Below are positions 7,765-21,341 of a stretch of 23,970 nucleotides of DNA, one piece after another. The notes beneath the pieces were generated by a model. It searched no databases and was not told where the DNA came from. It worked only from the letters and a program-made list of their open reading frames with translations. This DNA comes from a virus, in the IMG/VR virus record IMGVR_UViG_3300009164_000356, positions 1-23,970 of that record; one strand, written 5' to 3'. Within the stretch, counting starts at the first letter, position 1; every line of letters begins with the position of its first letter. Made by a program: the position numbers and the translations under genes.

Positions 7765-8004
7765 TCAAAATGTAGGCGGATTCCTAGCGTCGTCGCAGCA
7801 GCCGGAAACGCGGCGAGCAGTCGGAGGGTGGGAGCGTTCATGAATTGCTTGTAGCTCTTGCTTATAATCTTCGTTGTTCTGATTTTGTTCTAGGCAGCAG
7901 CGGCATGTTCCATCAGTCACTTTTCCGCCGTAAAAGCCCAAGCCGCAAAGGGAGGTTAAACCTTTGCGGCTTGTTCTGTATTCGCATTTTGGTTCTTGTG
8001 GCAT
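7765..8004 (-). CDS. Cys-rich small protein, possible zinc-binding
   Basis: 79 residues. Cysteines occur at MPQEPKC, SLCGLGFYGG, TDGTCRCCLEQ and, near the end, RVSGCCDDARNP. The spacing (C, CGLGFYGG, C-x-C-C, CC) suggests one or two metal-binding knuckles. The pattern CGLGxYGGxxxxGTCxxC looks familiar to me from short phage tail-region proteins, but I cannot name the family. ATG 8004 lies 10 bases after the stop of the spliced exon 2 reading of the upstream gene, or about 240 bases after the unspliced stop. A 13-bp perfect hairpin lies within codons 11-22. Function unknown. Confidence 0.55.
   Translation of the reverse strand: MPQEPKCEYRTSRKGLTSLCGLGFYGGKVTDGTCRCCLEQNQNNEDYKQELQAIHERSHPPTARRVSGCCDDARNPPTF
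7939..7973 (-). repeat. 13-bp perfect inverted repeat inside Cys-rich gene
   Basis: CAAGCCGCAAAGG (7939-7951) pairs perfectly with 7961-7973 around a 9-base loop. On the minus strand it is followed by GGGCTTTTACGG, too short a T-run for a good terminator, and on the plus strand by no T-run. It lies about 60 bases downstream of the intron 3' end. Confidence 0.7.
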
Positions 8005-8014
8005 TTTACCCGGG

Positions 8015-8032
8015 CTAGCCGCATTTTGTTAC
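8015..8032 (-). CDS. Predicted exon 2 of intron-containing tail gene
   Basis: If the group I intron ends at G8033, the exon begins GTA ACA AAA TGC GGC TAG, adding Val-Thr-Lys-Cys-Gly and a stop in the same frame as the upstream exon. The stop lies 10 bases before the next gene's ATG, restoring the tight spacing seen elsewhere in the operon. This is a prediction that depends on the splice sites. Confidence 0.45.
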   Translation of the reverse strand, partial: VTKCG

Positions 8033-8272
8033 CGCTCAGGCTCTTTATCCCAAGCATCTGCATGTTCCCATGCAGGTCAGACTATATCTTCAGCTTTTTG
8101 AGCTGCCGGGCGCTCGTGTCTGGTGTATTGCTTGTGCTGCTCACCAGTTAGTCGTTGCACCTTTCGCATACTTTTTTGCACTTCTGCGACTTGGCTCAGG
8201 ATTGTCCGGTCTGGAGTTCCCCTGAATTCACCCGGTATGGGCCTATGGTTTTGTTACGAAGTATTTTCTGAC
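8033..8272 (-). ncRNA. Group I self-splicing intron, ORF-less
   Basis: Read as minus-strand RNA the conserved core is present in order. P3: ACCGG 8236-8232 with CUGGU 8147-8143. P4: UUCAGG 8226-8221 with CCUGAG 8200-8195. P5: UCC 8215-8213 with GGA 8207-8205. The Q-like element CAAUCCUGAGCCAAG. P6a: UCGCA 8189-8185 with UGCGA 8168-8164. The R-like element GUGCAACGACUA, and P7: GACUA 8153-8149 with UAGUC 8084-8080. P8: GAGC 8142-8139 with GCUC 8103-8100. The S-like element AAGAUAUAGUCU. P9: CUGCAUG 8075-8069, loop GGAA, CAUGCAG. A last stem, 8055-8049 with 8040-8034, is followed at once by G8033, a fitting terminal omega-G. A P1 can form at U8273 (U8273-G57 wobble with G8257, plus four pairs). 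The core is near certain. The 5' splice site is not. No endonuclease is encoded. Confidence 0.88.
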
Positions 8273-8731
8273 ATAATATTCATCGTCTGCTCTAATCCAA
8301 TCTCTAGGGCTTGGCCCTACTTCTGTCCATGCGAAAAACTCAATCACATAAAGAAAAGTTCCAGAACGTGTTTCATTTCCGTGCAAAGGTTGGCAAATAT
8401 CCACCCATAAATCTTTGGCATTTGTTGTTGGTCCTCCAAATTCTGTGTTGGTCGCAGAAACTATTACTCCGTCCGTTACTACAACGTGACGACACAACCA
8501 TCGAAGGCAAGCACGTTTTCGCTTAAACGATCCTGGAATTGTTCCAGTTCCTGCTTGAAATAGCTGTCCTTCATCAGAAAACGTGTACCCAGATAATACG
8601 TAGTCTGGATGAAGAGTGTGCAGTAGGATGTCTAAATCAAAATCCCCGCATAAAGCCCCGCCACAACAAACACAAGACGGTTTCCCGCCTTTCGTGATCA
8701 CCTTGCCTGCGGCTGTAAGCTTTACTGGCAT
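8243..8731 (-). CDS. Tail protein, Cys-rich N-terminus, gene carrying the intron
   Basis: The unspliced frame gives 162 residues from ATG 8731 (MPVKLTAAGKVITKGGKPSC), which follows the previous stop as TAA-T-ATG. The in-frame ATG 8779 is rejected because its 16 extra residues are read from inside the upstream gene. A cysteine cluster CVCCGGALC (20-28) suggests metal binding or a disulfide. The rest is strand-rich with many aromatics (FLYVIEFFAWTEVGPSPRDW). Unspliced, it ends YYVRKYFVTKP at TAG 8243-8245, and those last codons may be intron sequence. Spliced, exon 1 (8731-8273, 153 codons) would continue into exon 2 as YYVTKCG. It sits in the tail-tip region. Family not recognised. Confidence 0.65.
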   Translation of the reverse strand: MPVKLTAAGKVITKGGKPSCVCCGGALCGDFDLDILLHTLHPDYVLSGYTFSDEGQLFQAGTGTIPGSFKRKRACLRWLCRHVVVTDGVIVSATNTEFGGPTTNAKDLWVDICQPLHGNETRSGTFLYVIEFFAWTEVGPSPRDWIRADDEYYVRKYFVTKP

Positions 8732-8732
8732 A

Positions 8733-9101
8733 TTATGGGCATTCTTGCGTTGCGAGCCAAGAAGGCTTGCTTCCATCATGGCTCAATACAAATGTGCCGC
8801 TTGAAGATGGTGCGGCCAGCGATACCCACTCAGCTCCGTCATAATACATCATGTCGCCTGACGTAGGGTTTTCTGGGAACGGCTCGGCGTAGATGCTGCG
8901 GTTGGTGTGTCCGTTGTCGCCTGTTCCAAATACTACCTTGATTCCATTACGAATACCTTGATCGGTAATCGATGGCACTTCGACGGCTGCATAGACAAAG
9001 TCACGCATCAGGTCGCGTGCGCTGATTCGATACGGGTATCCTGCACCGCCGACGGCTGGTGCGCTCTTGACTCGTTCCTCGAAATTTACCGGTAGGGACA
9101 T
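8733..9101 (-). CDS. Tail-tip/baseplate structural protein, unknown family
   Basis: 122 residues. The first 45 (MSLPVNFEERVKSAPAVGGA, then YPYRISARDLMRDFVYA) look like an attachment segment. The end has the short repeats common in phage fibre and baseplate proteins: YYDGAEWVSLAAPSSSGTFV followed by LSHDGSKPSWLA. The start lies 3 bases beyond the preceding stop. It is placed three genes after the tape measure and probably belongs to the tail tip. Confidence 0.6.
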   Translation of the reverse strand: MSLPVNFEERVKSAPAVGGAGYPYRISARDLMRDFVYAAVEVPSITDQGIRNGIKVVFGTGDNGHTNRSIYAEPFPENPTSGDMMYYDGAEWVSLAAPSSSGTFVLSHDGSKPSWLATQECP

Positions 9102-18427: not shown

Positions 18428-19900
18428 TTAGACTGAGTATCGGTTTTTGTCGGAGAGGATTTCGGCTTTGTGCAGGGCAAAGTATTCTGCGGCCTCGGCT
18501 GGTGTCATAGTGGCCATGGCCTTGAGATGGCTGACTGGTGCTTCGTTAGTGTCACCGGCAAGAGCTACGGGAGCAGGATGGCCAGTGCTGGCGAGCATCT
18601 CGGCAGCGCGTGCGCTGACCTTTTCCTCTGAAACTTCGGTTTTTTCTTCAAGCTCTTTAACCTTGGTTGCAAGCTCCTCGGCTTTTTCGGTAACTTCAAC
18701 AGCCTTTTCTTGCTCGGTGGCAAGTTCGGCGCGAAGCTGAGTGATAATCTCAGCATGACCGCTAAGTTCTTTGATGCGTGCTTCGGCAGATACAAGATCG
18801 GCGCGAAGAGAATCGTTTTCAGCGATGGCAGCCTCGATCTTGAGTGCTTCGTCGTTGCCGGGAAATAATTTAGCGAAAAGGCTCATGCTTTTTGCTTGAG
18901 TGTCAAATTTCACGATCTCATCAGCAAATTTTCGATCCATGGCTTCGGCTGCGCCCATCCATGTTTCGGCTTTCATCAGCTCACGCATTTGGTCAGGATT
19001 AGCGCCGGTGCGCTTTGCGTAAATAACCGCGATCTCGTTTGAGATTTCATCGAGAAGTTTTGCCGCACGGGCATGCGTAGCAGAATCACCGGCGACTGCT
19101 TGGCTGGCTTCGTGAATCATAATGCGTCCTCCTTCGACGATCCGCACCTTGTTGGCCGCCATCAAGATGACACTGCCCATGGATGCTGCCAGAGTGTTGA
19201 CTGTGGCGATGATCTCGACGCCGCGTCCGCGCATCTGCATCAGCGAATTGTAGACGCGGTAGCCGTCAAGCACCGATCCGCCAGGGGAATTGATCTCGAT
19301 CTCTAGCGTCTCAAGCGCATCGTTGGCGGAACATTGCAAGGTTCCGACTGTCATGTTCTCAGCAACAGCCTTTTGACCATAGCTGCGCTCGATGTCGGCG
19401 ATCAAATCGTCTGCGCTCCATGGCGTGACGGCATCATTAAGCCGCACCTTGGCGACCCGGTTTTCGATGGTGAGCAGTTTCATCCTATTGTTGGATTCGG
19501 TGTCAAGTTCTGACTGGCGATCTTGGTATTCTTTGACAATATCTACAGGATCAATCACTTCTTCTATTTCAAGAGATGAATAGGCATCACGCGTACGAGC
19601 ATCATTGTCGATTGCCTCAATTATATCATAACCTTCATCCATCAATTTCTTGGCCTTATATTTTTTGAATTGAACTTCTGCACCTTTCGGAAAATCGCTT
19701 AAATGAATTTGTGAATGTGGAACATCATGTGCATTGAGCAAATTTCGCGTTGCTTGCATTTGTGAATCTTGCCGTCCACTAATAATGATTACGTCATGGT
19801 CCATCGACTCGTCTTTTAGATAGTCGATTACTTCTTGAACAGGAGAGTCTCCATTAAATAGAGTCCCATCGATATCGCAGATTATTGATGGATTAGGCAT
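18428..19900 (-). CDS. HAD phosphatase - ClpP/S14 head protease - scaffold fusion
   Basis: 490 residues. Domain 1 (1-125) is a HAD phosphatase with all four motifs: CDIDGTLF (D9, D11), IIISGRQ (S41), KKYKAKK (K79-85) and AIDNDARTRD (D98, D100); the order resembles the phosphatase half of T4-type polynucleotide kinase. Domain 2 (about 140-335, from MKLLTIENRVAKVRLND) is a ClpP-like head-maturation protease: NSPGGSV (204-210), LAASMGSV with Ser240, MIHEAS with His263, and ETWMGAAEA with E312 in the usual Asp position. Domain 3 (350-430) is a charged coiled coil typical of internal scaffolds. ATG 19900 overlaps the portal stop by 8 bases and has GGAAG at a good distance. An internal ATG at 19483 starts the protease alone but has no well-spaced ribosome site. 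Confidence 0.85.
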   Translation of the reverse strand: MPNPSIICDIDGTLFNGDSPVQEVIDYLKDESMDHDVIIISGRQDSQMQATRNLLNAHDVPHSQIHLSDFPKGAEVQFKKYKAKKLMDEGYDIIEAIDNDARTRDAYSSLEIEEVIDPVDIVKEYQDRQSELDTESNNRMKLLTIENRVAKVRLNDAVTPWSADDLIADIERSYGQKAVAENMTVGTLQCSANDALETLEIEINSPGGSVLDGYRVYNSLMQMRGRGVEIIATVNTLAASMGSVILMAANKVRIVEGGRIMIHEASQAVAGDSATHARAAKLLDEISNEIAVIYAKRTGANPDQMRELMKAETWMGAAEAMDRKFADEIVKFDTQAKSMSLFAKLFPGNDEALKIEAAIAENDSLRADLVSAEARIKELSGHAEIITQLRAELATEQEKAVEVTEKAEELATKVKELEEKTEVSEEKVSARAAEMLASTGHPAPVALAGDTNEAPVSHLKAMATMTPAEAAEYFALHKAEILSDKNRYSV

Positions 19901-21341
19901 TGACTACTTCCGGTGGCGGCATTTCGTTCGGATTAAGCATGGACATTTCACGGTCGTCAACTTCGACTCCGTAAAGCTCAGAGGCATCTCTGGCTGCAAT
20001 TTTTCTCAGAGCAACTTCCTGCGCTCGCTCGGTGTAATGTGCCTCCAGCGTCTTGCCGCGCATCGACACGATGTCCCGCAGGTTGGCTGCGCCCATCTTC
20101 CAGAGTGTTTCTAGCTCCTTGGTGATTCGCCCATCGTCGATGGTAAGCTTTGGTGGAGTCGAGAATGCCCACTGATACCAGTCGGATGATTGCGGAAGAT
20201 CACCGCGTTTCATCGCTTTTGCGACAGCGTATCCACAAAGTCGTTTTGCCGCATAAAAAAGCAAATCCTGCCGGTCATCAACAGACCGTTGAGCCATTGC
20301 AATTTCGGTGCGCTGTGCTGTGCCTCCACCGGCTGCATGCCCATCATAGAATGCCATTGGCCAATTAAGGCCGGCAAACGCGCCCTTGAGCAGTCGGTTG
20401 TGGAAGTCAAGGAATGGGTTGCCTGGTCGATTGTTTATAAGCGTCTCGATCTTGCCGCCGCTGTTGGATTTGAAATAACGAACAGTTCCGCCATCAAGCG
20501 ATTCCACTGTCATGCCTTTGCAAGATTCAGTGTCACCAATGAGCGCATTATATGGATCATCCAGATCAGGACCGCCGTTGTCGTTGTATTCGACAAGTGA
20601 GATGCTGCTCATCTGAAGCATCGCCAAACGCTCCCATTCGGTGCTCTGGATCATGTCCCGGCAGTCGTTGATGCAATGCGTTAGGGCAGTCAGGCCTCGT
20701 GCCTGGTATTGATATTCGGGATCGAACAGGTGAATGACGTTCTGCGCCGGTAGCCACTGATCTAGATCGCCACGTTTGTCGCAGAAAGCGTATTCTTTAG
20801 CCTCGCCGCTTGGAAAATAGGTGATTCCGTCTTGCAGCATTGCGCCTCGATACATCTGCCCGTCCGTAAATCCACGCGGGGTGGCGATCCGGTGGCTTGG
20901 AATTCCTTGATATTGTGGAAATCCGGTGGCCGTTTCGGTGAGCAGGATAAAGATTTCACCGTCAACGTCGATACTAGTTGAGAAACTGAACAGGTTTGTC
21001 TTGAGGTCGTGCATCCCTCCGCGCCCATCGCCGATGGGGTAAAAGCTGTCGGTCAAAAACTTGGTCGCAAGTTTGCCGAACTCTTCATCTCCGCCGGTGT
21101 AAATTGGAACAAATGCCCGCCCAACGGTATACATTCCACGTTGGTTGATGGCATTTTTAATCGGCCCAAAGTTAAGATAGATCCGGCGTGCATGGCTCTG
21201 CAAAGTCACCCGATCGAGCGCTGGAACAAGATCGCTGATGTCCTTCTTCTCGACCGGCTCGTATGGACGATAACGCGTGTTCTGGGCAGCGCGTGCTGCC
21301 TTATAGCTGACCTGTCTGCCGAATTGATCGAGTATTGCCAT
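19893..21341 (-). CDS. Portal protein
   Basis: 482 residues, of lambda B-type (Phage_portal_2-like) pattern: RVTLQSHARRIYLNFGPIKN followed by GMYTVGRAFVP near the start, the wing/stem region with FSTSIDVDGEIFILLTETAT, HLFDPEYQYQARGLTALTH, then GLNWPMAFYDGHAAGGGTAQ and RTEIAMAQRSVDDRQ near residues 330-360. This Gly-rich turn followed by a helix is a portal hallmark. It forms the dodecameric channel for DNA entry at one capsid vertex. Its place after terminase and a small connector-like gene and before the protease is canonical. The stop overlaps the next start by 8 bases. Confidence 0.9.
   Translation of the reverse strand: MAILDQFGRQVSYKAARAAQNTRYRPYEPVEKKDISDLVPALDRVTLQSHARRIYLNFGPIKNAINQRGMYTVGRAFVPIYTGGDEEFGKLATKFLTDSFYPIGDGRGGMHDLKTNLFSFSTSIDVDGEIFILLTETATGFPQYQGIPSHRIATPRGFTDGQMYRGAMLQDGITYFPSGEAKEYAFCDKRGDLDQWLPAQNVIHLFDPEYQYQARGLTALTHCINDCRDMIQSTEWERLAMLQMSSISLVEYNDNGGPDLDDPYNALIGDTESCKGMTVESLDGGTVRYFKSNSGGKIETLINNRPGNPFLDFHNRLLKGAFAGLNWPMAFYDGHAAGGGTAQRTEIAMAQRSVDDRQDLLFYAAKRLCGYAVAKAMKRGDLPQSSDWYQWAFSTPPKLTIDDGRITKELETLWKMGAANLRDIVSMRGKTLEAHYTERAQEVALRKIAARDASELYGVEVDDREMSMLNPNEMPPPEVVNA

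Follow-up and report, generated by a model that had tools for sequence, protein, structure and literature searches.

A group I intron core between two genes of a phage structural module, and the candidate positions of its 5′ splice site

Background

Does the minus strand between two adjacent genes of a viral genome hold a group I intron, where would such an intron begin and end, and is it likely to be active? The window, meaning the whole stretch of DNA that was analysed, is an entire IMG/VR virus record of 23,970 bases, and its minus strand codes for the structural module of a tailed phage, in which the terminase large subunit, the portal, a ClpP-type head protease and the tape measure protein are recognised. 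The genes which follow the tape measure gene on this strand include the small genes A (9833-9105), B (9101-8733) and E (7734-6862), as well as gene C (8243-8731), which specifies 162 amino acids from the ATG that aligns with its relatives (the listed open reading frame starts at 8779), and gene D (7765-8004), which specifies a Cys-rich protein of 79 amino acids and is the first gene after the intron. The intron core is located between C and D.

Elsewhere in the module, the N-terminal stretch of the ClpP-type head-maturation protease (18428-19900, minus strand) matches HAD and polynucleotide-kinase-phosphatase families (PHROG 415, E 2.3e-9), and the best phage relatives listed for this protein cover the protease part only. 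The only annotated-phage relatives of the portal protein (19893-21341, minus strand) are two records of Verrucomicrobia phage P8625, at 27% identity, which hints at the host group.

The kind of intron and its location have precedents. The minor tail gene of mycobacteriophage BAKA contains a 265-bp group I intron without an endonuclease, for which splicing was shown by RT-PCR and whose exon junction restores a known protein (PMC3706429), so there is a precedent for an endonuclease-free splicing intron in a phage tail gene, and the tail tube gene of phage Twort (orf142) is likewise interrupted by introns (PMC11878797). An earlier sequence-only reading of this locus, which considered a tail gene an unusual host for a phage group I intron, is at odds with both of these cases.

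Results

The catalytic core

The sequence-only reading recognised the core of a group I intron in the minus-strand RNA and proposed a covariance search with the Rfam family Intron_gpI as a check. In a search of the whole window against Rfam, this family (RF00028) matches positions 8303-8058 of the minus strand over model positions 1-253 with 91.4 bits (E 1.4e-22), which exceeds the gathering score of 50, and it is the sole Rfam family matched. The region from P3 to the terminal omega-G, comprising the catalytic core and the 3′ tail, spans 8022-8235 (214 nt), as delimited by the RF00028 match, the tail common to the intron family and covariation.

The 5′ strand of P3, CCGGGUG (8229-8235), pairs with CGCCCGG (8112-8106), and in the window each of the seven pairs is a standard one. 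In a set of 16 introns, made up of the window and 15 relatives, this helix is paired in 100% of the cells, with four pairs changed on both sides. P4 (8226-8221 with 8200-8195), P5 (8215-8213 with 8207-8205), P6 (8194-8193 with 8161-8160) and P6a (8188-8185 with 8168-8165) are each identified by the RF00028 match, by pairing and by covariation. P7, the guanosine-binding helix, is formed by GACUA (8149-8153) and UAGUC (8084-8080) and is also paired in 100% of the cells of the 16 introns. Pairing, covariation and folding locate P7.1 (8147-8142 with 8125-8120), a peripheral helix of IA-type introns, as well as the P8 hairpin (8091-8105) and the P9 hairpin CUGCAUG-GGAA-CAUGCAG (8058-8075), and the P9.1 hairpin GCUUGGGAUAAAGAGCCUGAGC (8034-8055) is identified by a motif shared with 59 viral stretches and with the terL intron of a Streptococcus phage. 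The earlier list of helices, P3, P4, P5, P6/P6a, P7, P8 and P9, is thus recovered in full with the addition of P7.1 and P9.1, and the Q-, R- and S-like elements are present as CAAUCCUGAGCCAAG (8204-8190), GUGCAACGACUA (8160-8149) and AAGAUAUAGUCU (8090-8079).

When these ten helices (P3, P4, P5, P6, P6a, P7, P7.1, P8, P9 and P9.1) were tested by window coordinate, all 51 core pairs were standard in the window, 92.4% of the helix cells were paired in the 16 introns, and 36 of the 51 pairs changed on both sides across the relatives. Shuffles give 42 cells changed on both sides where the named helices have 148, and a covariation score of 0.155 where the real alignment has 0.532, although the 15 relatives were picked by their common tail, so that kinship inflates this shuffle comparison. 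The control in which helix partners are slid retains the kinship among the introns, yet it separates clearly (score at most 0.10). The fold of the 217-nt core, computed for the isolated strand, has z = -3.84 relative to shuffles, and its minimum-energy structure reproduces P3, P4, P5, P7.1, P8, P9 and P9.1. That the core belongs to group I is close to certain. The presence of both P7.1 (8147-8120) and P9.1 (8055-8034) is characteristic of IA-type (IA2-like) introns, and the subgroup label rests on these helices. The ORF list contains no homing endonuclease reading frame in the intron core, as had been noted before.

The 3′ end

The sequence that follows P9 in the window is AUGCUUGGGAUAAAGAGCCUGAGCGGUAACAAAAUG. 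The motif GGGATAAAGAGCCnnnGCGRTAACA recurs in a further 59 viral stretches, in nearly all cases preceded by a P7 strand and a P9 hairpin, and the Streptococcus phage terL intron carries it too. The conserved 3′ end GGUAACAAAAUG (8022-8033, minus strand) has the same tail in all relatives listed, and in every one of them the tail runs past the equivalent of G8033. Because the sequence downstream of this tail varies between host genes, and because in one relative (L061) an open frame picks up again right behind the corresponding UG, the tail is considered to be part of the intron. The omega-G is therefore most likely G8022, by alignment with the family tail, and the 3′ exon would begin at C8021; the predicted intron then ends in G, as group I introns do. 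The terminal G proposed earlier, G8033, lies 11 bases short of this position, and it is ruled out along with G8058 by the extension of the tail to about G8022. An end after GCGG at G8019 was rejected as well: a 3-bp P10 would be possible with it, but its distance from TAACA fits less well than that of G8022.

The 5′ side

No acceptable local P1 was found near the core in the window. When one defect is allowed, the best local P1 containing a U.G pair scores 6.5, the lowest of 17 introns, compared to 7.5-19 for comparable introns. The A-rich linker (J1/3 or J2/3) which directly precedes P3 in the relatives listed is absent; the window has CCAUAGGCCCAUA at this place, which keeps its sole A-rich stretch (AACAAAA) apart from P3. 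The P1 drawn by Rfam at 8299-8279 was rejected since most of its pairs are non-standard, and the Rfam P2 is likewise mostly mismatched, which leaves the left end formerly placed at 8272 without support. Activity had been argued earlier from the intact core; the core is indeed intact, but neither P1 nor the linker, the parts that determine the 5′ splice site, can be recognised.

The only strong P1 containing a U.G pair that was found is remote. It consists of 7 bp between UAUGGGU (8403-8409, minus strand), after which the 5′ splice site would follow at U8403, and a candidate internal guide, GCCCAUA (8236-8242), directly 5′ of P3, and it closes a 160-base loop which holds the end of gene C. An equally good remote P1 arises in 3% of trials when the upstream sequence is shuffled. 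The window scored 15.5 when first scanned; after the region had been trimmed for a comparison with 16 other introns its score was 13.5, and the best remote match among those introns scored 14.0. The remote P1 is suggestive of a 5′ site at U8403, not proof of it. A site at U8245 was set aside as the first choice because P1 cannot form there, and the earlier placement of the insertion at the very last codons of the gene would hold only with a 5′ splice site near this position. The total length of the intron would be about 214-224 nt or about 381 nt, according to which 5′ site is used; no site reconciles all of the evidence.

Genes C and D

The stop codon of gene C (TAG, 8245-8243) lies 8 nt before P3. 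In four relatives that have genes C and D (L003, L004, L027 and L028) the start of gene D overlaps the stop of gene C, and no match to the intron was found in any of the four, as is expected for an inserted element; to either side of the intron, genes A, B, C, D and E follow one another as they do in L003, L004 and L028. The N-terminal part of gene C is about 50% identical to its counterparts in L003 and L004, and gene D is 42-44% identical. No closer relatives of gene C were matched among viral contigs and phages, and none of gene A were found in bacterial genomes, so the exact empty site could not be aligned.

In the frame of gene C, positions 8402-8246 have a coding score of 0.006 per codon, which is similar to that of the first part of C (-0.049), higher than 99% of out-of-frame pieces of known genes and lower than 98% of in-frame pieces. 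Gene C ends in Pro-stop, as it does in L003, L027 and L028, and its last 11 residues resemble the native C-terminus of L028 (YYVRKYFVTKP and YYATVSFTELP, 4 of 11 alike); local alignment of its last 53 residues to relatives is not significant (p 0.14 or worse). On balance, the frame probably represents genuine gene C as far as the TAG at 8243. This speaks against splicing at 8403 and keeps a 5′-truncated intron as a serious rival.

The host gene was previously called a tail-tip gene. Neither PHROGs nor Pfam gives a match for gene C, and the predicted structure of its product is unusable (pLDDT 37 and 52); a role in the tail is suggested only by its place, third behind the tape measure gene. Gene C (8246-8731, minus strand) is AT-rich, with a third-position GC of about 0.3 compared to 0.56 in other genes, and its sequence varies strongly from one relative to the next; its N-terminus has a conserved CxCC motif. 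A perfect 12-bp inverted repeat, AAGCCGCAAAGG/CCTTTGCGGCTT (7949-7981, minus strand), falls among the opening codons of gene D, where a 5-residue insertion sets the protein apart from those of L003 and L004.

Related introns

Similar introns occur in psbA, DNA polymerase, primase/helicase and terL contexts. A near-identical core was found only in L088 in the viral scan, and none was found on plasmids at the sensitivity used. Three introns of this type lie within about 4 kb in each of three single viral contigs (L037, L057 and L065).

The comparison with the minor tail gene intron of BAKA and Optimus (Cluster J), one of the closest known systems, covers size, setting and the lack of a homing endonuclease: both are small group I introns without such an endonuclease, located in a phage tail gene in BAKA and Optimus and next to tail genes in the window. 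For the BAKA intron RT-PCR showed splicing, whereas the window intron is predicted from its sequence and has only candidate 5′ sites. Intron 2 of psbA in Synechococcus phage S-CBWM1 (MG450654) is likewise compact and ORF-less at 227 nt, which makes the size of the window intron, earlier described as near-minimal, an ordinary one. It is 69% identical in DNA to the window over about 157 bases of core, but it differs in that P1, P2 and an A-rich J2/3 adjoin P3 and in that its host is a conserved photosystem gene. The introns of the phage HSd1 primase/helicase, the Xanthomonas phage MK21 DNA polymerase and Vibrio phage JSF38 have long exact core stretches in common with the window (GAATTCAGGGGAACTCCAGACCGGACAATCC in the case of HSd1). 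In contrast to the window, MK21 and JSF38 have clear local P1 hairpins and HSd1 has a weaker local candidate, and all three have an A-rich linker before P3 and a different P9.1 region. The terL introns of Streptococcus thermophilus phages (P4761) have the same 3′ tail after P9 as the window, including the terminal TG, whereas their core is only distantly similar and their host gene is a terminase.

Discussion

The reading that is somewhat favoured is that of an active group I intron, belonging to a widespread IA-type phage family marked by P7.1, P9.1 and the common 3′ tail, between genes C and D of a siphovirus-like structural operon, and present-day splicing, as judged from the sequence, is a little better than an even bet. 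In the late transcript, guanosine bound by P7 would attack the 5′ splice site, and the freed 5′ exon would then attack after G8022, joining the RNA from C8021 on (CGGCUAG, then gene D) to gene C. The in-frame TAG at 8245-8243, just 5′ of the core, would keep ribosomes off the core; an in-frame stop ahead of the core is a known pattern in introns (PMC3984707).

The principal alternative is that the intron is truncated or decayed at its 5′ side, with P1, P2 and J2/3 deleted and the core intact but unable to splice, in which case C would be read to its natural TAG, D would be translated from its own start, and the core would be a passenger in the mRNA. This is a real possibility, if a doubtful one. 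It accounts for the weakest local P1 of the 17 introns, the missing linker, the coding-like frame of gene C to 8246 and the Pro-stop ending found in three relatives, and both genes would be whole in the unspliced RNA. However, no damage is seen in any of the 51 core pairs or in the 3′ tail, so the deletion would have to be recent, and a 7-bp P1 partner with a U.G pair does exist.

If the intron is active, its best candidate 5′ splice site would be U8403, with P1 formed by UAUGGGU and GCCCAUA. Splicing there would yield a 111-residue C protein ending in ...DLWVG in place of the unspliced 162-residue form. The 160-nt loop without a linker, the chance expectation of about 3% and the modest margin over the remote matches of other introns weigh against this site, as do the removal of coding-like gene C sequence and the resemblance of the last 11 residues to the L028 C-terminus. 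A more far-reaching proposal, that a long-range P1 with the last 53 codons of C in its loop makes splicing a switch between the two forms of the protein, is unlikely.

Less likely still is an active intron with its 5′ splice site at or near U8245 and a P1 missed by simple pairing rules. Such a site would be at the C/D junction, where the relatives have an overlapping stop and start. It would give an exon with U as its last base, and the division of the stop TAG would match the in-frame-stop pattern (PMC3984707). However, just 9 bases separate U8245 from P3 and they hold no guide for the exon, and the spliced product would be an in-frame fusion of C with D, which none of the relatives seen has. 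A chance resemblance or an assembly chimera is barely credible: the contig is metagenomic and an intron type with three copies in some contigs (L037, L057, L065) can mislead assembly, but the E-value, the full covariation and a gene order to either side of the intron that is that of L003, L004 and L028 speak against such a reading.

With this intron core, the list of places where phage group I introns are known to insert gains another structural-module site. The core also provides a test case for whether an intact core without a recognisable local P1 can still splice. Should the long-range P1 prove to be real, the degree of self-splicing would set the ratio of two C-termini in a structural-module protein, and a remote P1 that works would provide an example of a phage intron which alters the C-terminus of such a protein.
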